DNA of 35,475 nt from Nevskia sp. (GTDB taxonomy: Bacteria; Pseudomonadota; Gammaproteobacteria; Nevskiales; Nevskiaceae): NCBI GenBank assembly GCA_028291705.1, contig JAQGNS010000466.1:1-35475 (forward strand), read 5' to 3'. Of this stretch, positions 5,026 to 30,327 are shown in pieces; the first letter of the stretch is position 1, and the number at the start of each line of letters is the position of its first letter. Below the pieces are notes generated by a model, which did no database searches, was not told the origin of the DNA, and saw nothing but the letters and a program-made list of their open reading frames with translations. A program made the position numbers and the translations under genes.

Positions 5026-5056
5026 GCGCACGTTAGAAATTGTTAGAAGGTGCTAG
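5026..5056 (+). promoter_or_regulatory. Direct-repeat operator site a, upstream of the ADC pair
   Basis: GCGCACGTTAGAAATTGTTAGAAGGTGCTAG: TTAG/TTAG/CTAG at 10-bp period; minus-strand -10 TAAGAT at 5008-5003. Confidence 0.7.
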
Positions 5057-5068
5057 TTGCGCATTAGG

Positions 5069-8002
5069 CTACTGGGTTGGGGCCTGGTATCTGCGCTTGG
5101 CGCGTCCAGTCATTGCCCGTGCCTCCTGCAGGTCGCGGCTTACGATGCCTTCCGCGAACTCCCCCAGCAAGGGCGAGAGGAGTCCATCCACCTGGGCTTT
5201 CCGATCCTGCTTCACCCACAGCTTCGCCAGACTGATGGCCGCGCGCAGCTGCCACAGCGAGGAGCCATGCTGCGTCGCCAGTTCGATCGCGCTTCCGAAC
5301 CATCGCTCGGCTTCCTCGGCCCGGCCGCGGCCCAACGCGAGTTCGCCTTTGATGCGCAGGATTTCGGGGCGGCACCAATGCTCGGGGTTGCGGTCTTCGG
5401 CCACCATCATCGCAAACAACGCGTCAGCCTGGGCGTGTAGACCGGCGGCTGCCAGGGCCATCGCCCCTTCCGCCTGGAAGAGCGGGTTGAACACGCTGCA
5501 TTGGCCCCGGCTCAGCAATCTGGTGCCCGCGACGATTGCCTCCGCGGTTGCTTCCGGTGTGGTATCTGACGACCCCGATAGTGCACGAATGCACATGCCA
5601 AAGCCGTGGTAGGCCTCGATTCCGCAACGCTGCGCGTGCTGGATCAGAGTTCCGGCATGCCGCTCGATTTCCGACCATTCGGCCCCGACCAGATAGAGGT
5701 TGAAGCTGTGCCACGATTGCGCGATGCAAAAGGGGATAGGAAAATCTAGCTGGCGTGCCTCCGCGATGGCCATGCCGCTCATTTCCAGGGCTTCAGCCGC
5801 ACTGCCCTGCATCAGGAGTACATGGGAAAGGACGCCGAGGCCGTCGATGCGGCGATCATAGCCAAAGTGCCGGATCTGCAGTTGCCGATCCTCTTCGTCA
5901 TCGGTGGCAAGCGCTTCTTCGAGCAGCCTGCGGGCCTCCTTGTAATTCCCCTGTTGCTGCTCACACAGCCCTAGCATCCAGCGGGCCATTGGCCTGCCAC
6001 CCGCTTGGCCGGATTTTTCGGCGACTGCCGCACAGCGCCGCGCGAGGCGCCGAGCCTGGTCCAGATCGCCCGCGCGGACTTGCTGTGCCCACAGCGTGAG
6101 GTAGGCGATCAGCTGCCGCTTGCTGTCGCCGAGGACTTCGGCCAGCAAAAGAACCCTGGTCCAGGTCCTTGTGAATTCTTCTCCCATGCCAACGGTAAAC
6201 ATCACCGCCGCACCGAGCGCCATTTGGATCAGGATCTGCTCCTCCGGCGTCGCCTCGCTCGCATCGAGCCGTTCCAGTGCTTGCGCCATCCGGGTCCTGC
6301 ACTCCGGCAGAAGTCCCAGGCTGAGCCATATCGATGCCGAATACGCGGCCAGGCGGATGCCCAGAAGAGTATCCCCGAGGCTGGACATCGCCCAGTCCAT
6401 CGCCGCGCGGATGTCGTTGAGTTTGGAGGCAAGGCAATGCGGCCATTCGCCTATGCTTTGCTCAAGCTGTGCACTTTTGAATAGGATCCGTTCGTGGTAG
6501 CGCGCGTGCCTGTGGGAGATCTCCCGCGATTCCCCGGATTCCGCCAGCTTACGCAGGGCGTAGTTGCGCGTGGTTTCGAGCAGCCGATAGCGAACGTCCG
6601 GGCTGTCCGGCTCGGCGACCGCCAGGGATTTGGCGACCAGGCCCGAAACATCGACGTTGCCGATGCGCTCGAGGTTGTCGCCTTCCGCGAGCGCAACCGC
6701 GCCGATCGCTTCCAGATCGAATGCATCGACAAATACCGAGAGACGGTACAACAGGCGGCGTTCCGCCGGCGAAAGAAGGTTGTAACTCCAGTCCAGGGTT
6801 GCCGATAACGTCTGGTGGCGCGGCAAGGCCGTGCGCCGGCCAGGCCAGAGCAGGGAGAATTGCTGCCCCAGCAGTTCCGCGGTCTTGTGAATGCCATAAG
6901 CCTGCACCCGCCCTGCGGCCAGTTCAATGGCGAGCGCTATTCCGTCGAGTCGCCGACAGATATCGACGACGGCCGCGACGTCGACGTCATCATCCAGGTC
7001 AACCTGGGTGCCCCCGGCGCGGGCACGCTCCAGGAACATCTGTACCGCAGGGTACGCAGACGCTTCCTGCGCCGTTACCGCGACGCCCTCCGGCGGCATC
7101 TGCAGGGGGCGCAGCCGGAAGACGCGTTCCCCTTCCGCATTCAGGGGTTCGCGACTGGTTGCCAGGATATATACGTCAGGCGCATGTCTGAAAATCTGCT
7201 CGGCAACCGACGCCACCGGCTCCGCCAAGTGTTCGCAGTTGTCGAGAATCAACAGCATGCGCCGATGCTGCAGTATGGCCACGATTTCAGGCACGGGGTT
7301 TTCGGTGAAGACCTGCAACCCGATCGTGACAGCGATGGTCGCGGCGACCTGCCTGGCATCCTTCACGCCGCACAGATCGACGAACTGGACCGCGGCGGCA
7401 AAATCCGTCAGGACAGTATGGCCAAACGCCACTGCAACCGTCGTCTTGCCCATCCCACCAGGTCCGACGATGGTTACAAAACGCTCGGCCAGCAGTCTGA
7501 TGCCAACTTCGTGAACAGTCTCGGCGCGCCCCACCATCCGGGCCAGGACGGGTGGAAGGGTGCGCGATCCGCTCCTGGAGGATGAGGCGCTTGGCTTTAA
7601 GGCCGAGTCCGTGGTGCGCAGGTGCGTGACCGGCGCAACAAAGCAATAACCTCGTCCCGGGACATTGACCAAGTATCTGACGTCGGGCTGGCCGTCCCCA
7701 AGCGCCTTGCGCAGGGCCGATACGTGGAAGCGCAGACTCCCCTCATCGACGATCAGGCCCGACCATACCGTGGCGTGAATTTCGCGATGCGCAACAACTT
7801 CACTGGCCCGGTTGACCAGCAGCACGAGAATATCGAAGGCGCGACCGCCGAGCTTGACGGTTTCGCCGTTACGTTGAAGTAGGCGCCGCGCGGGAAACAA
7901 CTTGAAGGGACCGAACGAGAAGGCATCCGAACCGGTTGTAGACATACCATCGCTAATGGTCTCCAGTTCGTCTGGTTCACTCGGGTACTCTGGTGCGGTC
8001 AT
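5069..8002 (-). CDS. Winged-helix (Trans_reg_C/OmpR-type) + STAND/NB-ARC-like ATPase transcriptional regulator 1
   Basis: ORF open from 8134. The wHTH FGPFKLFPARRLLQRNGETVKLGGRAFDILVLLV...RYLVNVPGRGYCFVAPV is followed by Walker A GPGGMGKTTVAVAFGH, Walker B-like RRMLLILDNCEHL and a helical-repeat C-terminus. ATG at 8134 lies inside a proposed -10 element, so an internal start (8002 or 7945) is preferred. Confidence 0.88.
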   Translation of the reverse strand: MTAPEYPSEPDELETISDGMSTTGSDAFSFGPFKLFPARRLLQRNGETVKLGGRAFDILVLLVNRASEVVAHREIHATVWSGLIVDEGSLRFHVSALRKALGDGQPDVRYLVNVPGRGYCFVAPVTHLRTTDSALKPSASSSRSGSRTLPPVLARMVGRAETVHEVGIRLLAERFVTIVGPGGMGKTTVAVAFGHTVLTDFAAAVQFVDLCGVKDARQVAATIAVTIGLQVFTENPVPEIVAILQHRRMLLILDNCEHLAEPVASVAEQIFRHAPDVYILATSREPLNAEGERVFRLRPLQMPPEGVAVTAQEASAYPAVQMFLERARAGGTQVDLDDDVDVAAVVDICRRLDGIALAIELAAGRVQAYGIHKTAELLGQQFSLLWPGRRTALPRHQTLSATLDWSYNLLSPAERRLLYRLSVFVDAFDLEAIGAVALAEGDNLERIGNVDVSGLVAKSLAVAEPDSPDVRYRLLETTRNYALRKLAESGESREISHRHARYHERILFKSAQLEQSIGEWPHCLASKLNDIRAAMDWAMSSLGDTLLGIRLAAYSASIWLSLGLLPECRTRMAQALERLDASEATPEEQILIQMALGAAVMFTVGMGEEFTRTWTRVLLLAEVLGDSKRQLIAYLTLWAQQVRAGDLDQARRLARRCAAVAEKSGQAGGRPMARWMLGLCEQQQGNYKEARRLLEEALATDDEEDRQLQIRHFGYDRRIDGLGVLSHVLLMQGSAAEALEMSGMAIAEARQLDFPIPFCIAQSWHSFNLYLVGAEWSEIERHAGTLIQHAQRCGIEAYHGFGMCIRALSGSSDTTPEATAEAIVAGTRLLSRGQCSVFNPLFQAEGAMALAAAGLHAQADALFAMMVAEDRNPEHWCRPEILRIKGELALGRGRAEEAERWFGSAIELATQHGSSLWQLRAAISLAKLWVKQDRKAQVDGLLSPLLGEFAEGIVSRDLQEARAMTGRAKRRYQAPTQ

Positions 8003-8156
8003 GGTCGCACGCGGCAGTGACGCTGGGGCTGGCGTTGCCCGACTCCTGACAATCTGTGGCTCATATGTTTCTGCTCCCGGCGAATCTGACCTCACGGAAG
8101 CACTGGGTCCCTCCCTGCGCCCGAGTTTGATCATAGAACCCTGACCGTGCCTTCGG

Positions 8157-8184
8157 CGCGTTAGACGTTGTTAGACGTCATAAG
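8157..8184 (+). promoter_or_regulatory. Direct-repeat operator site b, upstream of regulator 1
   Basis: GCGCGTTAGACGTTGTTAGACGTCATAAG-type 10-bp repeats; minus-strand -10 TATGAT at 8135-8130. Confidence 0.7.
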
Positions 8185-8437: not shown

Positions 8438-8458
8438 TCTAACAACGAATAACGTGCG
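8438..8458 (-). promoter_or_regulatory. Direct-repeat operator site c, upstream of the isochorismatase operon
   Basis: Complement GCGCACGTTATTCGTTGTTAGATCG; plus-strand -10 TAAGAT at 8477-8482. Confidence 0.7.
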
Positions 8459-8516: not shown

Positions 8517-9215
8517 ATGCCCCAGAAATCCAGCCTGGCAAAGCGCAGCGAGAAGGGTCTGCTGACGCCCGACAACTGCGTCGTCGCTTTTATCGATCTG
8601 CAACCGCAGATGCTATTCGGCGTCAGCAGTCACGACCGCCAGACCATCATCAATAACAACGTGCTGCTGGCCAAAGCCGCCAGAGTTTTCGGCGTGCCCG
8701 TGGTCCTTTCGACCGTGGAGAGTAAGAGCTTCAGTGGCAATACCTGGCCGCAGCTGCTGGCCGCACTGGCCGGCGTGGCGCCGATCGAGCGCTCGTCGAT
8801 GAACTCTTGGGACGACAGCAATTTCGTTGCCGCGATTGAGAAGACCGGCAAGAAGAAGATTGTGTTGTCAGGCCTGTGGACCGAGACCTGCGTGGCGCTG
8901 CCTACCATCCAGGCCATCCACGACGGCTACGAGATTTACGTTGCCGAGGACTGCTGCGGCGACGTCAGCCTGCTGGCTCACGACAACGCCATGAAGCGGG
9001 TGATCCAGGCTGGCGCCAAGCCGGTTACGGCGCTCTCGACCATGCTGGAATGGCAGCGCGACTGGGCCCAGCGCGACACCTACGATTCCGTGATGGATAT
9101 CGTCAAGGCGCACTGCGGGGCTTACGGCATCGGTGTGGAATACGCCTACACCATGGTGCACAAGGCGCCGGCGACCAAGCTACCTGACTACATCGTTCCG
9201 GGAATGAAGGTGTAG
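8517..9215 (+). CDS. Isochorismatase family hydrolase (YcaC-like)
   Basis: DNCVVAFIDLQPQMLFGV...KKKIVLSGLWTETCVALPTIQAIHDGYEIYVAEDCCGDVS: isochorismatase-like Asp/Cys motifs; SD AAGGAGAG upstream. Confidence 0.92.
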   Translation: MPQKSSLAKRSEKGLLTPDNCVVAFIDLQPQMLFGVSSHDRQTIINNNVLLAKAARVFGVPVVLSTVESKSFSGNTWPQLLAALAGVAPIERSSMNSWDDSNFVAAIEKTGKKKIVLSGLWTETCVALPTIQAIHDGYEIYVAEDCCGDVSLLAHDNAMKRVIQAGAKPVTALSTMLEWQRDWAQRDTYDSVMDIVKAHCGAYGIGVEYAYTMVHKAPATKLPDYIVPGMKV

Positions 9216-14376: not shown

Positions 14377-17262
14377 CTATGCGATCTTTTTTTGACCGGC
14401 AAGCAAACGCCTCGCTACTCGAAGATCGGCGCTGTCCTGTCCCCGATCGAAGCGGGAGAGAACTGCACGGATGGCCGCCCGGGACCGGTCGATCTCGCCC
14501 CGCGCCTGATGCAACGTGGCCAGTGACAGCGTCAGGCGAAGCTCCCACGACAAGGCACCGTTGCGGCGCGCCAGACTCAACCCTTCGGAAAAACATTTCT
14601 GGGCTTGTACGGAATCGGTTCCTTTTGCCGCAGCGAGCAGGTCGCCCTTGACGCGCAACATTTCCGGCAAGTTATGGTGCTCCCCGCCGTGACTGGATAC
14701 CCAGGTGAGCACCTTGTCGATACAGGCCAGCCCTTCCGCATGGCAGCCGTGCTGGAATAGCCCGTCGGCCAAGGCGCACATCAACGTGGCATCTCGCGAC
14801 CTGAATTCATTTTTCGGAGACTCGATATGGCAGCGCAAGCGGTCGAGACATTCCGGCCCGCCGCCGCGTTTCAACATCAATTCGCACAAAAAGCCGTGCC
14901 CCATGGCATTGAATACCGCAAGGCCAAATCTCTCCGCCTGATTCAACAGGGTCCTGATGACGACCTCGGCACGGTCCCAGTTGCCGTGCCAGATGAACAT
15001 TGGGGCGAGCCAGTTAAGCGCTATGCAGGTAACAGCCGGATAACCCACCTCATTGGCGGTTGCAATAGTTTCTTCGGCCCGATGTAGTGCTTCGACGCAA
15101 TATCCGTGCAGCCACAGGCTTCTGGCATGTGCGGCCTTCGCTTTGACCCAGTAGTCGTACCCTCCGCATTCCATGACTTGCACCTGTCGGCTGGCGAGGA
15201 ATGGTCGATCCGCGGATTCACAATAATGAATGGCTTCTCTTTGCTTCCCCGCCAGATGAAGTGTGATGCCCATGAACCAATCCGATAATGCTCTCGTATC
15301 CGATTCGCCGATTGCGCCGGAAATGAGCACGCTCTTTTCAGCTACCGCCACTGCGTGTCCGAACAATCCGCAATGCTGGTAGTACTGGATGAGCGCTCCA
15401 GTGATGCGGAGCTGAAAGTATCGATCGCCAAGATACTCGGCGATCTCCAGGCCCCTGGTAAGCTCGCCGCGGATCCTGTCCGTCGCGGGCTGGGTAGGCA
15501 GGGCGGAAAGGGCAAATGCCTCGCGCAGCCGCATTTCCGGACGGGCCCATTCCGAGCCGGGCGCAAGAAGAGCAAGGGCGCGCTCGGACCAGTATTTGCA
15601 TTCACTCCACAACGACATCTGAATGAATATGGCCGCGGCTTCAGCCGCCAGTTCGACACCGGTCCTGGCGTAGGTCTTGTCGGAGAAGCACCATTCCAGC
15701 GCCGCTCGAATATTGCCGATGTTGTGCTTGCACCACTCCCACTCCTCCAGGCCGTCGATGGTCCCGACGTCGGTATCAACCCGCTGAAGGACCCCGATGA
15801 AGTAGTGGGCGTGTGCCAACAGGACGCCCGGACCTTCCGAGCACTCGCGCAGCTTGTGTTGTGCATACGACCGCGTCGTATCGAGCAGGCGGTATCGCGC
15901 GTTCTGGTCGGAAAAGAACACTGTCACTAATGATTTCGCAACCAGGCTGGCCAGCGATTCGGCAACAAGAGCTGCATCCAGATCGTCACTACGGGCCACG
16001 TTCTGTGCGGCATCCATCGAGAACTGTCCGACAAACGCCGAAAGCCTGCGAAACACTGCGGCTTCGATCGGCGTAAGGAGCTGATGACTCCAGTCGAACA
16101 TGGCCATCATGGTCTGGTGCCTGACCGGTGCCGTTCTCCTCCCGACCAGAGCTTGTGAAGAAGGCTCGCCCAGAAGCGTGGCGATGCCACTGACCCCGAA
16201 GGTGTGGACCCGGCCGGCGGCCAGTTCTATGGCCAGGGGATTTCCGTCCAGTTGCGTGCAGATGTCGGCTACGACGCTGCACTCTTCGTCGCTCAGCTGC
16301 GTTCCACCTACAGTCATCGCCGCCCGGTCGATAAAAAGCTTTGCGGCTGGAAAGTCGAGAAGCCTGGCCTCGGTCATAGGCTCGTCCACGGGAGGGGTCG
16401 CCAGCGCCCCGAGCTGGTGGACGAACTCTCCCTCGACCCTCAAGCGCTCGCGCGTCGTCGCCAGGATGTGGATGTCCGGCGCTTGAGACCAGAGAGCCTC
16501 GGTTATTCTGGCGGCTTCTTCAATGACATGCTCACAGCTGTCGAACACGAGCAGCATCCGCTTGTCCTTCAGGAACTTCACCAGCCCGGCAACCGGATCG
16601 ACGGTACCTCCCGGTAGCCCAAACATGAATCCCAGGGTGGTTGCAAGGTGCGCCGGGTCCGACAGGTGCGAAAGATCGAGGAATCGAACCTCTCCATCGA
16701 ACCTGTTCGACAATGCGTGCGACACCGCCACGGCAAGGGTAGTCTTTCCAATTCCTCCCGGGCCGGCGATGCTCACGAACCGCTTTTGCAGCAGCGACAC
16801 GGTAAGTGCCTTGAGTTCGTCGTCGCGCCCGATGATTCTGAAGTGGCGGCGTAGCAATTCTTCCGGGGCATGGCCTTCAAAGCGGGCGACAGGGGCTGAT
16901 GCTTCGCGCGCGCGCGATATTGGTGTGACGAAACAATAGCCACGCCCCTGCACAGTAGCCAGATACCGCTCTCCAGTTGCGCCTTCTCCAAGCGCGCGTC
17001 GGATCATCGCAATCTGGAAGCGGAGGTTTCCTTCATCGATCTCCAGGTCCGGCCATACGTTCTCCAGCAACGCCGTCTTGGTGACGACCTCGGCAGGATT
17101 GGCAGCAAGGAGCAGCAGGATATCGAAAGCGCGATCGCCCAGACGGACCGGTTCACTACCCCGTTCGAGCTTGCGCTCCGCGGGCGTGAGGCGGAACGGA
17201 CCAAAGCAGAGTATTTCTCCCTGGTCCCATGCCGCTGCTCGAATTGTCTGTTTGGAACGCAT
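14377..17262 (-). CDS. wHTH + STAND/NB-ARC-like ATPase transcriptional regulator 2
   Basis: ORF open from 17508; the ATG at 17262 (MRSKQTIRAAAWDQGEILCFGPFRLTPAERKLERG) directly precedes the wHTH. Walker A GPGGIGKTTLAVAVSH, RMLLVFDSCEHV. Confidence 0.88.
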   Translation of the reverse strand: MRSKQTIRAAAWDQGEILCFGPFRLTPAERKLERGSEPVRLGDRAFDILLLLAANPAEVVTKTALLENVWPDLEIDEGNLRFQIAMIRRALGEGATGERYLATVQGRGYCFVTPISRAREASAPVARFEGHAPEELLRRHFRIIGRDDELKALTVSLLQKRFVSIAGPGGIGKTTLAVAVSHALSNRFDGEVRFLDLSHLSDPAHLATTLGFMFGLPGGTVDPVAGLVKFLKDKRMLLVFDSCEHVIEEAARITEALWSQAPDIHILATTRERLRVEGEFVHQLGALATPPVDEPMTEARLLDFPAAKLFIDRAAMTVGGTQLSDEECSVVADICTQLDGNPLAIELAAGRVHTFGVSGIATLLGEPSSQALVGRRTAPVRHQTMMAMFDWSHQLLTPIEAAVFRRLSAFVGQFSMDAAQNVARSDDLDAALVAESLASLVAKSLVTVFFSDQNARYRLLDTTRSYAQHKLRECSEGPGVLLAHAHYFIGVLQRVDTDVGTIDGLEEWEWCKHNIGNIRAALEWCFSDKTYARTGVELAAEAAAIFIQMSLWSECKYWSERALALLAPGSEWARPEMRLREAFALSALPTQPATDRIRGELTRGLEIAEYLGDRYFQLRITGALIQYYQHCGLFGHAVAVAEKSVLISGAIGESDTRALSDWFMGITLHLAGKQREAIHYCESADRPFLASRQVQVMECGGYDYWVKAKAAHARSLWLHGYCVEALHRAEETIATANEVGYPAVTCIALNWLAPMFIWHGNWDRAEVVIRTLLNQAERFGLAVFNAMGHGFLCELMLKRGGGPECLDRLRCHIESPKNEFRSRDATLMCALADGLFQHGCHAEGLACIDKVLTWVSSHGGEHHNLPEMLRVKGDLLAAAKGTDSVQAQKCFSEGLSLARRNGALSWELRLTLSLATLHQARGEIDRSRAAIRAVLSRFDRGQDSADLRVARRLLAGQKKIA

Positions 17263-17496
17263 TGAAATCCATGCACATGAAGGAGGCCGCCGGAAATCGA
17301 ATGACGCTGTCGAAACAGACCAAAGGCGGACAAGGCGTGTCACTCGGACATTCGCCGACGCTCGGGGCTGGAAGTTCTGCTCCTCGATCTCTCTTGGCAA
17401 ATGCCAAAACAGCATAAGCGGGCCCCGAACACGCGTCAAAATAATTCGAAGCCTCACGAAGAGGTGGTCGCAGGTATCGAGCCAGTCAGTAAGGCC

Positions 17497-17518
17497 TTCT
17501 AACAACAATTAACATGCT
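17497..17518 (-). promoter_or_regulatory. Direct-repeat operator site d, upstream of the exporter operon
   Basis: Complement AGCATGTTAATTGTTGTTAGAAGG; plus-strand -10 TAAGAT at 17537-17542, same spacing as site c and shared CTAAGATCCA 10-mer. Confidence 0.7.
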
Positions 17519-18257: not shown

Positions 18258-19286
18258 ATGAAATTCGCTCCGGCATGGTCCGGTCGTTTCGTAATGATCG
18301 CCGTTCTGGCCCTGACCATCGGCATGGTGTGGTGGGGGCTGAACCGCCTTGATCATCGCCCCCGCACCCAGAATGCCTACCTCTATGCCGATACCGCCGG
18401 TATTGCACCGGAGGTGAGCGGCCGGATTATCGCGATCACGGTGCGTGACAATCAGCGCGTCAAAAAGGGTGACGTCCTGTTCCAGATCGACCCCGAGCCA
18501 TACGAGCTGCGCCTGAAGCAGGTGCGGGGGCAGGCGGATTCGCTGCTGGCGCAGATCGACCTTACCGGACGCCAAGTGGAATCCCAGAACTCGGGCGCGA
18601 ACGCCGCCGCGGACCAGGTGCGCCGTGCCCGCGAGCAACTGAAGCTGGCGCGGGACAGTCGTGGCCGTCTGGAACCCCTGCTGGAGAAGGGTTACGTCAC
18701 CGAACAGCAGATCGACGAGGTGCGTACCAACGAGCAAACGGCGGAAGTCGCGCTGTCGGCGGTGGTGCAGCAGGCGGCCCAGGCCCATCAGGCGGTCGGC
18801 GATACCCATAGTCTGAGCGCACAGTTCGAAGCTGCTCAAGCGGCCGTGGCTCTGGCCGAGCGTGATTTGCGCAACACCAAAGTCCTAGCTCCGTTCGACG
18901 GGCTGGTGGTGAGCCTGAGCATCGCCGAAGGTGCATTCGCCGCCGCCGGGCATCCGCTGTTCACCCTTATCAAGGCCGATCGCTGGTATGCGGTCGGCGA
19001 TTTCCGCGAAACCGAACTGCCGCAGATCCAGATCGGCGACCCTGCCGCAGTCTGGCTGATGTGGAGCGGCAATCGCGCCCTCAAGGGGCATGTCGAAAGC
19101 CTGGGTTGGGGAGTTCGTCCCGAGAACGGGCTGGGGCCGGACTTGCCGGCGGTGAGCCGCACGCTCAACTGGGTGGTGGTCGCCCAACGTTTCCCCGTGC
19201 GCATCCTGCTGGACGACGCGCCTGCCGATGTCATGCGGGTCGGTGCCACCGTATCCATCCGGGTCAGTCATGAGCAGCATCCCTGA
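18258..19286 (+). CDS. HlyD-family membrane fusion protein (MdtN-like)
   Basis: MKFAPAWSGRFVMIAVLALTIG...NAYLYADTAGIAPEVSGRIIAITVRDNQRVKKGDVLFQIDPEPYEL: typical MFP lipoyl/coiled-coil architecture. Confidence 0.9.
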   Translation: MKFAPAWSGRFVMIAVLALTIGMVWWGLNRLDHRPRTQNAYLYADTAGIAPEVSGRIIAITVRDNQRVKKGDVLFQIDPEPYELRLKQVRGQADSLLAQIDLTGRQVESQNSGANAAADQVRRAREQLKLARDSRGRLEPLLEKGYVTEQQIDEVRTNEQTAEVALSAVVQQAAQAHQAVGDTHSLSAQFEAAQAAVALAERDLRNTKVLAPFDGLVVSLSIAEGAFAAAGHPLFTLIKADRWYAVGDFRETELPQIQIGDPAAVWLMWSGNRALKGHVESLGWGVRPENGLGPDLPAVSRTLNWVVVAQRFPVRILLDDAPADVMRVGATVSIRVSHEQHP

Positions 19287-22732: not shown

Positions 22733-22857
22733 GACGGGTCCGTCCGGGGTGGCAGGGTGGGGGCGCTGCCGCTTCCCGATGGTCAAGGCAATCAGATCAA
22801 TGACGGCCTCGTCAGGAATGTACGACGCCACCTGCAGGCTATTGGAGGCATGTGCTA

Positions 22858-25764
22858 ATGTCACGAGCCATGTCTCAACAACTCCGCCCCGGGGACTGGT
22901 TCGCAGGCGAGGTCCTCCAGTTTGGCCCTTTTCGCCTGATTCCAGGCGAAAGGCGGCTTGAGCGCGACGGGAAGTCGGTCAAGGTCGGGGATCGGGCGCT
23001 AGATGTACTGCTTTGCCTGATCGCCAACGCGCCTGCTGTGGTCGGCAAAGCGGCGTTGATCGAGCACGTTTGGCCGAATCTCGTCGTCGAGGAGGGCAAC
23101 CTCCGATTTCAAATCAATGTCCTGCGGCGCATCCTGGCCGAGAGTCGTGATGGCCATCGATACCTGGCCACGGTGCAGGGCAGAGGCTATGCATTTATCG
23201 GCAACGTGACCCGGCTGCGGGCACCTGAGGTCCAGCCCAATGTTGTGGGAGCCGACACCAACCTCCGCCTGCCGGCGCAACATTTCGGCATTCTGGGGCG
23301 CGACCGCGAGATTGCCATGGTTGCCGAGCGGCTGACGGCCTGCCGTTTCGTCACCTTGGTCGGGCCCGGCGGTGTCGGCAAGACCACGGTGGCGGTGGCC
23401 GCGGCCCATGTACTTTTAGCGGCGTTCGGTGGCGCGGTCCGGTTTGTCGATTTCGGGGCTCTGAGAGACGCTTCGCTTGTCCCCGCCACCCTGGCTTCTC
23501 TCTTCGGACTGACCGCGCACACATCTGATCCGATCAGGAGCCTTGTTGCCCTGCTTCATGATGAGCGCCTCCTCCTGGTCATGGACAGCTGCGAGCATGT
23601 CATCGATGTAGCGGCACGGATCGCCGAGGCCTTGTTCCTGGAGGCTCCGGATGTTCACCTGCTGCTGACTAGTCGCGAGTCGCTGAGAGTCGAAGGGGAG
23701 TTCGTGGTCAGGCTACCGCCGCTGCCTGCCCCGCCGACTCCGGGAGACATCGACGCGGTTACTGCCATGGCCTACCCGGCAACCCTGCTCTTTGTCAAAC
23801 GGGTGAGCATGGCGATGCAGGGATTCAGGCTACGCGATGAGGATGCCGCGGCCGTCTGCGAGATCTGCCGGCGCCTCGACGGCCTGCCTTTGGCGATTGA
23901 GCTTGCTGCAGGCCGGATCCCGGCCTTCGGCATCGAAGGGACCCTGGCCCGATTGGGAGAGGATCTGCGCATCAATGGCCAAGGCCGCAGGACGGCCCCG
24001 CAGCGCCATCAGACTCTGGGAGCGATGCTGGACTGGAGCTATCAGCTGCTGACACCGGCTGAGCAGGTGATATTGCAGCGCCTGTCGATCCTGGCAGGTA
24101 CCTTCTCGATGGAAACGGCCCAGGCCATCGGATCGTTGCTGGACGAACGCAATTCCGACGCAATACCAGCGATCGCCGAGCTGGCTGCCAAGTCGCTGTT
24201 GAGTGTTGATCTCAATCAGGCAAAAACCCGCTTCCGCTTGCTCGACACCACACGAGCTTACGCCTTTCAAAAGCTGCGCGACGGTGCCGAGTTGTCTCCG
24301 GCGATGAAGGCTCTCGCCCAATACCTCTTCCAGGTCCTGGCACAGGCTGAGCAGAACGATGAGCTTGGCGACCTTGAATCGATGTCCATTTGCACGGAAG
24401 AGAATGTCAGTAACGTTCGGACGGCACTGGAATGGTGCTTCGCGCCGGGAGGCGACCTCGACCTGGGTGTAACGCTCGGCGCTGCCGCTATGGCGTTGTT
24501 TGTAGACCTGTCGCTCTGGGGCGAGTGCAAGCGCTGGGCCGCGAGAGCGCTGGCCGCGTTGACGCCCCGGCTGGCCGGCTCTCAATCGGAGATGAAGCTG
24601 CGTGGTGCGCTCGGCTTGGCATTGATGTTTACCGAGGACACCAAGAACCAACATCGCGTGGAATTGGACCGGTCCCTGGAGATCGCCAAAGAGCTTGGAG
24701 ACAGGAATTGCCAGTTTCGCGTGATGGGCTCCCTGATCCTCTACTGCCATCGCAGGGGTGAACTGGCGACGGCTCTTGACCTTGCCCGGAGCAGCGCCAT
24801 CGTCGCAGGCTCGTCAGGCAGCGAGGAAATGGTTGCGTTGTCCGACTGGTTGCTGGGCACGTCGCTGCACGCCATCGGAAACCAGGCGGAAGCAATCCCC
24901 TATTGCGCGACGGCCGCCAGCCCCCTGCGTCGCGCGTCCCGGAGCCGCATCATTGGCCATGGGATTTACGATCATTATCGGATCAGAGCTCGCGGTGGCC
25001 TGGCGCGGAGCCTTTGGTTGAGCGGATTTCACCGTAAAGGGGTTGAGGAAGCCGAAGCGTCAATCGCCGAGGCTGTCGAACTCGGGCACCCTGTGACAAA
25101 TTGTATCGTGCTGATCTGGGCTGGTCAGGTCTTCATCTGGAACGGCGATTGGTCGCGCGCGGAGTCTGTCGCCGCCGACCTGCTACGTTATGCTACCCAG
25201 TATTCGCTCCTGCCAAATGCTGCAATCAGTCGGTTGCTCCTTGGAGAACTGAGAATCAGGCAGGGTCGTGCGGCCGAAGGCATTGAGCATTTGTCCGCCT
25301 GCCTCACTTCCCAGGTATCGACGGTGTTGAACCAGTGTTACTTTGCCGAAGGACTCTTGATGCTCGGGCGGGTTGAGGAAGGACTCGAACTGATTGATAG
25401 CGCTTGGCGCGTGACTGTAGAGCGGGGAGGCTCCTTTTGGCTTCCGGAAATCTTGAGAGTCAAGGCAGCATTGCAAGCCCGCCTCGGTGAGGTCCCGCTT
25501 CTCGCGGAAGCCACGTTTCTCGAGGCGGCTGAACTTGCGGAACGGCAGGGAGCAGCATCGCTGAGCCTGCGCATTGCAATGTCTTTGGCGGAATGCCGGG
25601 CGAGCCGCGGTAGAGTCAATGAGGCAGTAGGTGCTTTGAGCTCGATGATCTCACGATACAGCGGTGACCAGGACAGCAGACTTTGGCTGGCCGCGCGGGA
25701 GCAGTTGGATGACCTCGAGCGGCGCACGGACAAACCTCCCCGGGAATCCAGGCATGCTTCGTAA
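22858..25764 (+). CDS. wHTH + STAND/NB-ARC-like ATPase transcriptional regulator 3
   Basis: MSRAMSQQLRPGDWFAGEVLQFGPFRLIPGERRLERDGKSVKVGDRALDVLLCLI...; Walker A GPGGVGKTTVAVAAAH; RLLLVMDSCEHV. Confidence 0.92.
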   Translation: MSRAMSQQLRPGDWFAGEVLQFGPFRLIPGERRLERDGKSVKVGDRALDVLLCLIANAPAVVGKAALIEHVWPNLVVEEGNLRFQINVLRRILAESRDGHRYLATVQGRGYAFIGNVTRLRAPEVQPNVVGADTNLRLPAQHFGILGRDREIAMVAERLTACRFVTLVGPGGVGKTTVAVAAAHVLLAAFGGAVRFVDFGALRDASLVPATLASLFGLTAHTSDPIRSLVALLHDERLLLVMDSCEHVIDVAARIAEALFLEAPDVHLLLTSRESLRVEGEFVVRLPPLPAPPTPGDIDAVTAMAYPATLLFVKRVSMAMQGFRLRDEDAAAVCEICRRLDGLPLAIELAAGRIPAFGIEGTLARLGEDLRINGQGRRTAPQRHQTLGAMLDWSYQLLTPAEQVILQRLSILAGTFSMETAQAIGSLLDERNSDAIPAIAELAAKSLLSVDLNQAKTRFRLLDTTRAYAFQKLRDGAELSPAMKALAQYLFQVLAQAEQNDELGDLESMSICTEENVSNVRTALEWCFAPGGDLDLGVTLGAAAMALFVDLSLWGECKRWAARALAALTPRLAGSQSEMKLRGALGLALMFTEDTKNQHRVELDRSLEIAKELGDRNCQFRVMGSLILYCHRRGELATALDLARSSAIVAGSSGSEEMVALSDWLLGTSLHAIGNQAEAIPYCATAASPLRRASRSRIIGHGIYDHYRIRARGGLARSLWLSGFHRKGVEEAEASIAEAVELGHPVTNCIVLIWAGQVFIWNGDWSRAESVAADLLRYATQYSLLPNAAISRLLLGELRIRQGRAAEGIEHLSACLTSQVSTVLNQCYFAEGLLMLGRVEEGLELIDSAWRVTVERGGSFWLPEILRVKAALQARLGEVPLLAEATFLEAAELAERQGAASLSLRIAMSLAECRASRGRVNEAVGALSSMISRYSGDQDSRLWLAAREQLDDLERRTDKPPRESRHAS

Positions 25765-26156: not shown

Positions 26157-29066
26157 ATGCCTAAGCAACTCCGACCCGGGGACTGGTCCGCTGGCGAGGT
26201 CCTCCAGTTTGGCCCTTTTCGCCTGATTCCAGGCGAGAGACGGCTTGAGCGCGACGGCAATCCCGTCAAGATCGGAGATCGGGCACTGGATGTGCTGCTT
26301 TGCCTGATTGCCAACGCGCCGGATGTGGTCGGCAAAGCGGCGTTGATCGAGCATGTCTGGGCCAATCTCGTCATCGAGGAGGGCAACCTCCGTTTTCAAA
26401 TAAATGCCTTGAGGCGCGCCTTGGCTGAAAGCGGGGACGGCGATCGATATCTGGCCACGGTGCAGGGGAGGGGCTATGCCTTTGTCGGCGGCGTGACCCG
26501 GCTGCGGGCGGCCGAGCTCCGGCACAATTTTGTGGGAGCCGACACCAATCTCCGGTTGCCGGCGCAACATGCCGACATTCTGGGACGCGACAGCGAGATT
26601 TCCATGGTCGCCGAGCGGCTGACGGCCTGCCGTTTCGTCACCGTGGTCGGCCCGGGCGGCGTCGGCAAGACCACGGTGGCGGTGGCCGCGGCACACGTGC
26701 TTTTACCTGCATTCGATGGCGCGGTCCGTTTTGTCGATTTCGGGGCCCTGAGAGATGCTTCGCTGGTTCCTGCAACCCTGGCTTCTCTCTTCGGACTGAC
26801 CGCGCCCACGTCTGATCCGATCAAGGGCCTGATCGCCCTGGTGCACGACCAGCGTCTCCTGCTGGTCATGGACAGCTGCGAGCATGTGATCGATGTGGCC
26901 GCACGGATCGCCGAGGCGTTGTTCCTGGAGGCTCCGAATGTTCACCTGCTGCTGACCAGTCGCGAGTCGCTGAGGGTCGAAGGGGAGCTCGTGGTCAGGC
27001 TGCCGCCTCTGCCGACCCCACCGCCCGCGCCGACGGGCATCGACGCTGTCACCGCCATGGCTTACCCGGCAACGCAGCTCTTCGTCAATCGGGTAAGGAT
27101 GGCGGTCCATGGATTCGAACTGCGTGATGAGGACGCTGACGCCGCCTGCGACATCTGCCGGCGTCTCGACGGTCTGCCCTTGGCGATCGAGCTCGTTGCG
27201 GGCCGGGTCCCGGCCTTCGGCATCGAGGGAACCCTGGCCCGGCTGGGCGAAGATCTACGCATCGACGGCCAAGGCCGCAGGACGGCCCCGCCACGCCATC
27301 AGACCCTGGGGGCGATGCTGGACTGGAGCTATCAGCTGCTGACACCCACCGAGCAGGCGATACTGCGGAGGTTGTCGATCCTGGCGGGCACCTTCTCGAT
27401 GGAAACGGCCCAGGCCATCGGATCGCTGCTGAACGGCCGCAATTCCGACGCACTGCAGGCGATCGCCGGGCTGGCTGCCAAGTCCCTGTTGAGCGTTGAT
27501 CTCAGCCAGACGAAGACCCGCTTCCGCTTGCTCGACACGACTCGGGCTTACGCTGGTCAAAAGCTGCGCGACGGTGCTGAGCTGCATCCGGCAATGAATG
27601 CTTTCGCGCAGTATCTGTTCCAGATCATGGCACAGGCCGAGAAGGACGATGAACTCGGCGAACTTGAATCGATGTCCGTCTGCACGGAAGAGAATGTCAG
27701 TAACGTTCGGACGGCACTGGAGTGGTGCTTCGCGCCGGGCGGCGACCTCGACTTGGGCGTAAAGCTCGGCGCTGCCGCTATAGCCTTGTTCGTGGACATG
27801 TCGCTCTGGGGCGAGTGCAAGCGCTGGGCCGCGAGCGCGCTGGCTGCGCTGACGCCTCGGCTGGCTGGATCTCAATGGGAAATGAAGCTGCGCGCGGCGT
27901 ATGGCTTGGCATTGATGTTTACTGAGGACACCAAGGACCAGCATCGCGTGGAATTGGAGCGCTCCCTGGAGATTGCCAAAGACCTTGGAGAGAAGTATTG
28001 CCAACTTCGAATTATAGGATCCCTGATCATCTACTACTACCGCAGGGGTGAACTGGCTGCGGCTCTCGATATGGCACGGAGTAGTGCCGTCGTCGCGGGT
28101 TCCACAGGTAATGAGGAAATGGTTGGTTTGTCGGATTGGTTCATGGGAATCGCGCTGCACTTCATCGGAAGTCAGGCGGAAGCAATTCTCTATTGCGAGG
28201 TGGCTTCAAGGCCCCTGCATCGCACATCCCGGAATTACATCGTCGGCTATGGACTCTACGATCATCGGATCAGGGCCCTCGCCGGTTTGGCACGGAGCCT
28301 TTGGCTAAGCGGGTTTCACCGGAGAGGGGTGGAAGAAGCCGAAAAGACGATCGCCGAGGCAATCGAGCTCGGGCACCCCGTGACAATCTGTGTCGCCCTG
28401 ACCTGGGCAGGGCAAGTTTTCACTTGGAACGGAGACTGGTCGCGCGCCGAGTCCATTGTCGCCGATCTGTTGCGCTACGCCACCCAGTATTCACTCATGC
28501 CACATGCTGCGGTCAGCCGCATTCTTTTGGGTGAGCTTAGAATCGGGCAGGGCCGTGTAACCGAAGGCATTGAGCATTTGTCCGCCAGCCTCGCTCTAAT
28601 GAGCGGTTCTTACCAGGTATCGACGGCGCTGAACCAGTGCGCTCTTGCCGAAGGCCTTCTGATGCTCGGACGGGTTGAGGAAGGCCTCGAACTGATCGAT
28701 AGCGCCAGGTGCGCGATCGTCAGGCGGGGAGGTTTCTATTGGCTCCCGGAGATCTTGAGAGTGAAGGCGGCGTTGCAAGCCCGCTCCAGCGTGTTCTCGC
28801 TGCTCGCGGAATCCACGTTTCTCGAAGCGACTGAACTTGCGGAACGGCAGGGAGCAGCTTCGCTGAGCCTGCGCATTGCAATGTCTTTGGCGGAATGCCG
28901 GGCAAGCCGTCAGGCAATCGGTGAGGCCCTGGATGCCTTGCGTTCGATGATGTCACGATTCGGCGGTGACAAGGACAGCCGGCTTTGGCGGGCCGCGCTG
29001 GAGCAATTGGACGTTCTGGAGCGCGATACGACCAAGCATCGCCAGGATGCCAAGCACGGTTCGTAA
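26157..29066 (+). CDS. wHTH + STAND/NB-ARC-like ATPase transcriptional regulator 4 (tandem duplicate of regulator 3)
   Basis: MPKQLRPGDWSAGEVLQFGPFRLIPGERRLERDGNPVKIGDRALDVLLCLIANAPDVVGKAALIEHVW...; long near-identical blocks with regulator 3 along its full length. Confidence 0.93.
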   Translation: MPKQLRPGDWSAGEVLQFGPFRLIPGERRLERDGNPVKIGDRALDVLLCLIANAPDVVGKAALIEHVWANLVIEEGNLRFQINALRRALAESGDGDRYLATVQGRGYAFVGGVTRLRAAELRHNFVGADTNLRLPAQHADILGRDSEISMVAERLTACRFVTVVGPGGVGKTTVAVAAAHVLLPAFDGAVRFVDFGALRDASLVPATLASLFGLTAPTSDPIKGLIALVHDQRLLLVMDSCEHVIDVAARIAEALFLEAPNVHLLLTSRESLRVEGELVVRLPPLPTPPPAPTGIDAVTAMAYPATQLFVNRVRMAVHGFELRDEDADAACDICRRLDGLPLAIELVAGRVPAFGIEGTLARLGEDLRIDGQGRRTAPPRHQTLGAMLDWSYQLLTPTEQAILRRLSILAGTFSMETAQAIGSLLNGRNSDALQAIAGLAAKSLLSVDLSQTKTRFRLLDTTRAYAGQKLRDGAELHPAMNAFAQYLFQIMAQAEKDDELGELESMSVCTEENVSNVRTALEWCFAPGGDLDLGVKLGAAAIALFVDMSLWGECKRWAASALAALTPRLAGSQWEMKLRAAYGLALMFTEDTKDQHRVELERSLEIAKDLGEKYCQLRIIGSLIIYYYRRGELAAALDMARSSAVVAGSTGNEEMVGLSDWFMGIALHFIGSQAEAILYCEVASRPLHRTSRNYIVGYGLYDHRIRALAGLARSLWLSGFHRRGVEEAEKTIAEAIELGHPVTICVALTWAGQVFTWNGDWSRAESIVADLLRYATQYSLMPHAAVSRILLGELRIGQGRVTEGIEHLSASLALMSGSYQVSTALNQCALAEGLLMLGRVEEGLELIDSARCAIVRRGGFYWLPEILRVKAALQARSSVFSLLAESTFLEATELAERQGAASLSLRIAMSLAECRASRQAIGEALDALRSMMSRFGGDKDSRLWRAALEQLDVLERDTTKHRQDAKHGS

Positions 29067-29099
29067 GGTGTAGATCCCCGATTGACAGAACTGCCGGGC

Positions 29100-29134
29100 A
29101 AAAAAAGCCGGATTCCGCGAAGGCGAAATCCGGC
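29100..29134 (-). terminator. Rho-independent terminator (minus strand)
   Basis: Complement reads GCCGGATTTCGC-CTTC-GCGGAATCCGGC-TTTTTTT: ~12-bp stem (one G:U), 4-nt loop, 7 T. Confidence 0.88.
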
Positions 29135-29216
29135 AGGTAACTGGCGCGGGGGAGGTGCCCGGTGCGGGCGGAGGAGATGCGCCAGTGTGTTCGATACGTA
29201 CACCTTGCCTGTGCTC
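29100..29216 (-). ncRNA. Candidate small RNA with paired anti-SD loops and intrinsic terminator
   Basis: Complement strand: operator repeats (site e) and -10 TAGCAT at 29228-29223, then ~117 nt with nested hairpin CUGGCGC-AUCUCCUCC-GCCCG-CAC-CGGGC-ACCUCCCCC-GCGCCAG, ending in a strong terminator. The only SD-linked frame has no stop before the terminator. Confidence 0.55.
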
Positions 29217-29247
29217 CAGTTCATGCTACGAGCCTCCTATGCGGGAT

Positions 29248-29276
29248 GCACGTTAATGATTGTTAAAAGGTGGTAG
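29248..29276 (+). promoter_or_regulatory. Direct-repeat operator site e, upstream of the candidate sRNA
   Basis: GCACGTTAATGATTGTTAAAAGGTGGTAG; minus-strand -10 TAGCAT at 29228-29223. Confidence 0.65.
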
Positions 29277-29452
29277 CCCGTTCCGACTTCCAAGGCTTCG
29301 CGGTCAAGCTCAACTGAAGGCCGCGAATAGCGAGACGGAGGAACGCGATTTGTCGATGCGTGATGGCCGCGGACGCCTACCGCACATTTCACGAGACTGG
29401 GTCGGGCGACGCAGGGACTGCTCCGTTCCATGCCTACTCCAGCAGGGAATGC

Positions 29453-29481
29453 CTAGCAACTTTTAACGACGTCTAACGTGC
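29453..29481 (-). promoter_or_regulatory. Direct-repeat operator site f, upstream of the 37-aa sORF/TnsA-like unit
   Basis: Complement AGCACGTTAGACGTCGTTAAAAGTTGCTAG; plus-strand -10 TATAGT at 29502-29507. Confidence 0.68.
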
Positions 29482-29584
29482 TTCGTCTGAAAGCGTGCCC
29501 GTATAGTCGATCAGCAGAGGTCCGAGACTGCCGTCTGCGCAGGATGTCTTGCTGCCCAAATAACATATCGCATCGGATGGAGAC

Positions 29585-29698
29585 ATGGTCGAGGTCACTC
29601 AAAGCTCTTCGTCGAGACGCGAGGCGTCGCTGGAGACGGTAGCAGCCAAAGACGGAACGGTGCAGACAAAAATGACGGAGTATCTTGTTGGAAAATAA
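29585..29698 (+). CDS. Hypothetical 37-aa small ORF downstream of operator f
   Basis: ATG..TAA: MVEVTQSSSSRREASLETVAAKDGTVQTKMTEYLVGK; ~70 nt after the predicted TSS; SD weak/close (GGAG, 2 nt). Confidence 0.35.
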   Translation: MVEVTQSSSSRREASLETVAAKDGTVQTKMTEYLVGK

Positions 29699-29791
29699 TA
29701 AGATATACAGTCCATAGCACCGGATTGGAGTGGGGGGCCAGATACCAAGGTTTGCGACATTTTGGCAGAGGCGTATAGTGGCTCTGCAGCT

Positions 29792-29812
29792 TGTACGACA
29801 AGGAGTCGTACA
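29792..29812 (+). promoter_or_regulatory. Hairpin presenting the Shine-Dalgarno sequence of the TnsA-like gene
   Basis: TGTACGAC-AAGGA-GTCGTACA: 8-bp perfect inverted repeat, with the AAGGAG SD in the loop/closing base and the A of ATG (29812) at the stem end. Confidence 0.6.
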
Positions 29813-30327
29813 TGGGTATCAAGGACGAGCTACTGGCAACGCCCGAACCGGAGGCCTACCGAAGTCGCCTCACGGTTAATTTGTACACGCCGTATTCCTT
29901 GAAGGTAGACCGTGCTGTCTATCTCTACGGCCAGCCGAACTTCGATCACTGGGCGGTTCTGGAAACAGATCCGACGGTAACGCGCTTTAACGAAGCTTGC
30001 CCTCCGGTGACTCTCGGGAAGGGCTCCGGCGCCAAGGTAATCCTTCGGGTCCGACTGGAACTGAACCGGTTGCATAAACCGCCGACTATCGCCTGTGACA
30101 GCCCCACCGACCTGGATCTGCTCCTCTGGGTTCTGGGCGACGCCGGTGCGCATCTGGTGAGCCAGCCCCGCCTGAGCCTTGAGGCTATGGTCGTGGTAGT
30201 TGTCTGGGGTCGGGCTGAAGATACCTACTTCGCTGCACATCCCCGGCATCACGCATTGCATGATGCTCGGGCCTTACAGCGCGGATTTCATGCCTGGATC
30301 GTGGAGCAGCGGAGCCGGATGCCGTGA
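29812..30327 (+). CDS. TnsA-endonuclease-like protein (probable heteromeric transposase subunit remnant)
   Basis: MGIKDELLATPEPEAYRSRLTVNLYTPYSLKVDRAVYLYGQPNFDHWAVLETDPTVTRFNEACPPVTL: resembles the TnsA/TniC 'LExDPxVxxFxExP' pattern; SD AAGGAG 6 nt before ATG. Confidence 0.45.
   Translation: MGIKDELLATPEPEAYRSRLTVNLYTPYSLKVDRAVYLYGQPNFDHWAVLETDPTVTRFNEACPPVTLGKGSGAKVILRVRLELNRLHKPPTIACDSPTDLDLLLWVLGDAGAHLVSQPRLSLEAMVVVVVWGRAEDTYFAAHPRHHALHDARALQRGFHAWIVEQRSRMP

Follow-up and report, generated by a model that had tools for sequence, protein, structure and literature searches.

We report a candidate small RNA gene on the minus strand of the window, the whole 35,475-nt stretch of DNA analyzed here, which forms contig C55 of a 5.88 Mb genome assembled in 614 contigs. 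The locus is likely to be a genuine sRNA gene under operator control. We assign a probability of roughly 0.58 to the fuller reading of the sequence, in which a stand-alone, operator-driven sRNA would act in trans by anti-Shine-Dalgarno (anti-SD) pairing. The locus had been singled out from the letters of the DNA as a novel sRNA with two opposed anti-SD loops (the sequence-only reading). That observation was confirmed, with all of its elements present on the minus strand where they had been placed, and its interpretation was partly supported. The operator/-10 architecture, the RNA anatomy, the accessibility of the loops, and the absence of an ORF are all read directly from the DNA.

Promoter e and its operator family

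The match of promoter e to a promoter family of its own genome lies far beyond chance and is the strongest part of the case, though it looked the weakest at first. The operator, YTAAC-N6-TAACGTGC, occurs in six copies in the window and three on contig C115:

29266-29248, minus strand: operator e, TTAAC-AATCAT-TAACGTGC (in full TTAACAATCATTAACGTGC), a direct repeat that fits the family consensus exactly
29228-29223, minus strand: -10 hexamer TAGCAT, 19 nt past operator e, with a predicted start at about 29216
29463..29481, plus strand: operator d, divergent from e, with -10 TATAGT at 29502-29507, followed by some 300 nt of leader up to the ORF at 29812
8439..8457, plus strand: operator copy preceding 8517, an isochorismatase-family gene
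17499..17517, plus strand: operator copy upstream of the HlyD/FUSC/OEP efflux genes
8156..8174, minus strand: operator copy upstream of regulator 1 (5069-8134)
5028..5046, minus strand: operator copy upstream of an acetoacetate-decarboxylase-like gene (about 4892 to 4080, minus strand)
Contig C115 (locus L034), 2833 and 8259 on the plus strand and 16447 on the minus strand: operator copies of the same YTAAC-N6-TAACGTGC family

A TANNNT hexamer follows the operator in 9/9 copies, at an offset of 19 nt in seven and 20 nt in two, against a background rate of 0.66% per site at those two offsets. The composite pattern TAAC-N6-TAACGTGC-N19/20-TANNNT has five exact matches in the genome, promoter e among them (29265-29223). 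It was matched in 0 of 84 other genomes of the order and once outside its own genome in a 369-genome sample of the class, giving a single outside match in about 450 related genomes overall. With its operator and a -10 at 19-20 nt, the sRNA promoter belongs to the TAAC-N6-TAACGTGC regulon. The earlier proposal that operator e drives a discrete minus-strand unit is supported both by the 9/9 alignment of operator and -10 and by the exact composite match. Because TAGCAT stands at a fixed spacing after operator e, the RNA is predicted to start near 29216.

The operator-linked genes of the window are the isochorismatase-family gene, the acetoacetate-decarboxylase-like gene, and the HlyD/FUSC/OEP efflux set, while the C115 operators are linked to a UbiA/quinol oxidase operon, an operon with a beta-propeller gene, and a PQQ dehydrogenase. 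Most sites lead into genes, and no second copy of the sRNA was seen downstream of the other eight operators. The operator at 17499 lies about 700 nt ahead of the likely HlyD start (18258); the longest ORF of the regulator at 14377-17508, on the opposite strand, has a 5' end that overlaps this operator. Between operator d and the ORF at 29812 (171 aa, without a Pfam match), the leader of about 300 nt at 29508-29811 leaves room for another regulatory element.

Extent, coding content, and fold of the predicted RNA

The features of the transcribed unit and of the gene it faces are as follows:

29100..29216, minus strand: candidate sRNA, predicted at about 113-117 nt (about 115), without a stop codon in any frame
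29179..29186, minus strand: 5' arm of the outer stem, ACUGGCGC (8 bp, fold prediction)
29170..29178, minus strand: 5' C-rich 9-mer, AUCUCCUCC (unpaired probability 1.0)
29157..29169, minus strand: inner hairpin GCCCG-CAC-CGGGC (fold prediction)
29148..29156, minus strand: 3' C-rich 9-mer, ACCUCCCCC (unpaired probability 1.0)
29140..29147, minus strand: 3' arm of the outer stem, GCGCCAGU (8 bp, fold prediction)
29134-29107, with T7 at 29106-29100, minus strand: intrinsic terminator GCCGGATTTCGC-CTTC-GCGGAATCCGGC plus T7 (12-bp stem, CUUC loop, U7)
26157..29066, plus strand: regulator 4, a Trans_reg_C winged helix plus STAND/NB-ARC-like NTPase, convergent with the sRNA

As first described, the unit of about 117 nt ends at a Rho-independent terminator and is convergent with regulator 4, with 34 nt separating the regulator 4 stop codon from the 3' end of the sRNA. 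The terminator is the longest and most GC-rich among the candidates found in the window, and the strongest of them. On the plus side its hairpin lacks a U tract, so it should act on minus-strand transcripts alone. On the plus strand, no terminator was found at 28900-30000 and no run of four or more T between 29067 and 29460. These findings, together with the convergent geometry, would fit an sRNA that acts mainly in cis: the regulator 4 mRNA would read into the sRNA gene, and full-length pairing would feed back on the stability of that mRNA. However, the regulator 4 mRNA may end by Rho-dependent termination, the terminator of the sRNA lies short of the regulator 4 ORF, and two exposed C-rich strands would be needless for pairing in cis. 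We consider this account unlikely and favor action in trans.

Since no frame of the predicted sRNA contains a stop codon, it lacks a complete ORF; GTG is the sole candidate start codon besides CTG. Just upstream, the minus strand carries an AGGAGG followed, at 8-nt spacing, by an ATG at 29224, an arrangement that looks like a gene start. The sequence-only reading had named translation of this ATG as grounds for abandoning the sRNA. The SD sequence of such a small protein looks good, but its ATG overlaps the -10/start region of promoter e, so that the transcript from e would not contain it. Moreover, the reading frame stays open past the end of the terminator and matches no Pfam family, and the search for a promoter farther upstream on the minus strand gave none. 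A protein beginning at 29224 was accordingly rejected as highly improbable; as the RNA start near 29216 lies downstream of the ATG, the AGGAGG/ATG pair is read as promoter spacer. With a promoter that matches the consensus, a Rho-independent terminator, and no complete ORF, the predicted unit has the build of an anti-SD sRNA gene.

The 117-nt RNA is predicted to fold at -49.4 kcal/mol (z = -5.0), with the nested hairpin as both the minimum free energy and the centroid structure (z = -4.0 for the hairpin alone). Hairpin stability alone proves little, since 16% of 61-nt windows in DNA this rich in GC reach an absolute folding energy equal to or better than that of the hairpin. The outer stem lies where it had been reported, though it measures 8 bp (29186-29179 / 29147-29140) instead of the 7 bp originally given. 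Stems of 7 bp or more that enclose CCUCC on both strands were found only once in 3.67 million strand-bases, at this locus. The claim that the RNA exposes two C-rich strands complementary to GGAGG held up, as both are unpaired with a probability of 1.0 in the predicted ensemble and are predicted to form duplexes with UAAGGAGGUGA at -9.5 and -10.4 kcal/mol. The RNA therefore offers the accessible, GGAGG-complementary C-rich seed expected of anti-SD sRNAs. With its preceding C, ACCUCCCCC reads CACCUCC, a string also present at the 16S 3' end.

An internal loop with pyrimidine strands placed symmetrically on its two sides also resembles a protein-binding platform. The strands could bind a cold-shock-type protein or an RNA chaperone; alternatively, the RNA could serve as a sponge for another sRNA with G-rich seeds. 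Known sRNAs with such a motif, however, act on ribosome-binding sites (NfeR1, PMC10746234; AbcR, PMC7143759), and we regard either role as improbable next to anti-SD pairing.

Predicted targets, regulators, and proposed mechanism

Canonical SD sequences pair with each loop strand at about -9.5 to -10.4 kcal/mol, and candidate targets were ranked against 124 sampled background genes. The two SD sequences originally put forward as targets did not stand out: pairing at 8517 scores -8.7 kcal/mol (rank 0.40 against background), that at 29812 -6.7 kcal/mol (rank 0.51). The HlyD start at 18258 (GGGAGGG) reached -12.9 (rank 0.07) and a start at C115:17304 (GGAGGAG) reached -14.5 (rank 0.03); gene starts elsewhere pair as well as these two. 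For the leaders of the operator-driven units, pairing did not exceed that of random DNA (P 0.10-0.65). By its loop sequences, the sRNA appears suited to strong G-rich SDs in general.

Four related regulators, each with a winged helix and a STAND/NB-ARC NTPase, are encoded in the window:

5069-8134, minus strand: regulator 1
14377-17508, minus strand: second regulator
22852-25764, plus strand: third regulator
26157-29066, plus strand: regulator 4

Identity to regulator 4 is 35-82% in the other three. Each begins with an OmpR/PhoB/CadC-type winged helix (Trans_reg_C), the N-terminus matching CadC/PhoB/OmpR DNA-binding domains, and continues with matches to STAND/NB-ARC NTPase models; three of the four also match TPR models. 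The tandem regulators at 22852-25764 and 26157-29066 are 82% identical and likely arose by a recent duplication. The candidate sRNA sits behind the second tandem copy only. Regulator 4 has no close relative in its own genus, and its best identity elsewhere is about 44%.

The operator recurs near these more distant homologues. Among 80 regulator-homologue loci, mostly from Bradyrhizobium, 43 carry the same kind of operator. These loci contain 46 operator matches versus 2 for the reversed pattern, and a -10-like hexamer stands at 19-20 nt in 46/46. In many Bradyrhizobium loci the operator lies directly behind the regulator gene. Because the operator is linked to their genes across species, the winged-helix/STAND/TPR regulators are proposed as its likely binders. 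The operator repeats directly adjoin the -35 position, as they do in PhoB-type activation, from which we infer that the regulators activate.

Transcription of the sRNA, the identity and sign of its regulator, its pairing mechanism, and all of its targets are likewise inferred, and the scheme we propose is as follows. The operator and -10 copies (about nine, TAAC-N6-TAACGTGC) would be bound by the neighboring OmpR/PhoB-type winged-helix/STAND/TPR regulators. Once a regulator is active, the sRNA would be made alongside the enzymes, efflux pump, and oxidase of the regulon. The RNA of about 115 nt would then fold so that its hairpin displays two unpaired anti-SD strands, with the strong terminator behind it. 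One strand or the other would most likely pair in trans with purine-rich ribosome-binding sites and block initiation, and the targets would be mRNAs to be turned down while the cluster is on. We tentatively raise the possibility that a STAND/TPR winged-helix regulon carries its own anti-SD sRNA, whose face-to-face strands would serve as a built-in translation brake.

To our knowledge, the winged-helix/STAND/TPR regulator class has not been credited with any sRNA as a direct output, and we know of no description of a two-faced anti-SD internal loop. If correct, the scheme would give a defined operator and a post-transcriptional arm to a large, little-studied class of proteobacterial regulators, whose combination of winged helix, STAND NTPase, and TPR is present in many Bradyrhizobium genomes. 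It would also be a case of anti-SD sRNAs having an independent origin, apart from the alphaproteobacterial families. By itself, the operator consensus opens the regulon to direct tests in several species.

Conservation and comparison with known systems

The sRNA was absent from 60 relatives searched at the DNA level, where only a 24-base match was found, and blastn against plasmids gave no match. A covariance model of hairpin and terminator detected no homologue in 40 relatives and 48 loci; its weak matches fit mainly the terminator and not the C-rich strands. In Rfam searches, no family was found in the window at the gathering threshold or at E up to 10, and the best sub-threshold match of the sRNA scored 20.2 bits against a threshold of 52. 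The sRNA is probably a lineage-specific RNA of anti-SD type, with unusual wiring.

The lack of detectable conservation in the relatives searched, along with the lack of a target above background, would agree with a unit that is transcribed to no function of its own, whether as an insulator or collision point against read-through from regulator 4 or as a mere extra binding site for the operator-binding protein. A passive unit of this kind, however, would need no double-CCUCC hairpin, let alone one that is fully accessible and unique in the strand-bases surveyed. We therefore view a functionless unit as unlikely and retain the trans-acting anti-SD sRNA as the preferred reading.

Kinship with the alphaproteobacterial CCUCCUCCC families, which the sequence-only reading cited as examples of an established anti-SD strategy, was not borne out. 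The loop strands are AUCUCCUCC and ACCUCCCCC, neither containing CCUCCUCCC, and membership in cuckoo (CcsR) or alpha-r14 was rejected. Nor does the RNA have the three-hairpin layout of alpha-r14; it has one nested hairpin, with both strands in a single internal loop, plus the terminator. The genome encodes a one-piece tmRNA (RF00023 at 198.8 bits, tag ANDANYALAA), with no alpha_tmRNA above cut-off, which argues against an alphaproteobacterial host, an assignment on which the assembly contamination of 4.56% casts a small doubt. The CCUCCUCCC families are analogues of the sRNA, not kin.

A separate hairpin, GGCTCGC-GCCC-TCCTCCTCCC-GGGC-GCGAGCC, was encountered in Bradyrhizobium. A strong terminator comes after it, and it lies behind an AraC-family gene that itself follows the operator-linked unit:

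L057:16665-16760, L069:8781-8876, L071:15077-15172, L093:15888-15983, and L099:15176-15271, plus 8 other loci: Bradyrhizobium hairpin

Its TCCTCCC core is invariant in 13 sequences, and two of them carry a double-sided change of one inner pair, from GC to AU, which lends weak support to the fold. Five loci scanned against Rfam gave no match. This CCUCCUCC hairpin was rejected as a homologue of the sRNA, as it has a single loop and lies behind the AraC-family gene with no operator directly in front; it is possibly an anti-SD sRNA derived from a 3' UTR.

Among regulators, the PhoB/OmpR/CadC proteins and SARPs share with the present system a Trans_reg_C winged helix and direct-repeat operators that abut the -35 position. 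The window regulators differ in their C-terminal STAND NTPase and TPR and in their TAAC-N6-TAACGTGC operator, to which binding is proposed from linkage.

Among sRNAs, two sub-threshold Rfam matches are informative solely as analogues. The Betaproteobacteria toxic sRNA (RF02278) is likewise short, ends in a terminator, and contains an 8-nt UCUCCUCC identical to that of the candidate 5' strand; its motif, however, lies at the 5' end and not in an internal loop, and the candidate scores 13 bits against a gathering threshold of 50. SorX from Rhodobacter (RF02784) carries GCACCUCCC, a string common to the candidate 3' strand, after a small hairpin and before its terminator, but has a single C-rich stretch, and the candidate scores 15 bits against 46.6. 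AbcR1 and AbcR2 resemble the candidate in length, at 114-120 nt, and in carrying two CU-rich anti-SD motifs that remain unpaired (PMC7143759), whereas they lie next to lsrB in rhizobia, form three stem-loops, and have no detected sequence relation to it. Like the candidate, the alpha-r14/NfeR1 and cuckoo (CcsR) sRNAs are short and expose C-rich anti-SD motifs as unpaired stretches of their hairpins. CcsR/CIN1 RNAs adjoin a DUF1127 gene (PMC10253847), and none was seen beside the candidate. In NfeR1/alpha-r14, three redundant CCUCCUCCC motifs block initiation of ntrB translation (PMC10746234); where alpha-r14 presents this fixed motif in three hairpins, the candidate would present two different 9-mers that face each other in one internal loop.
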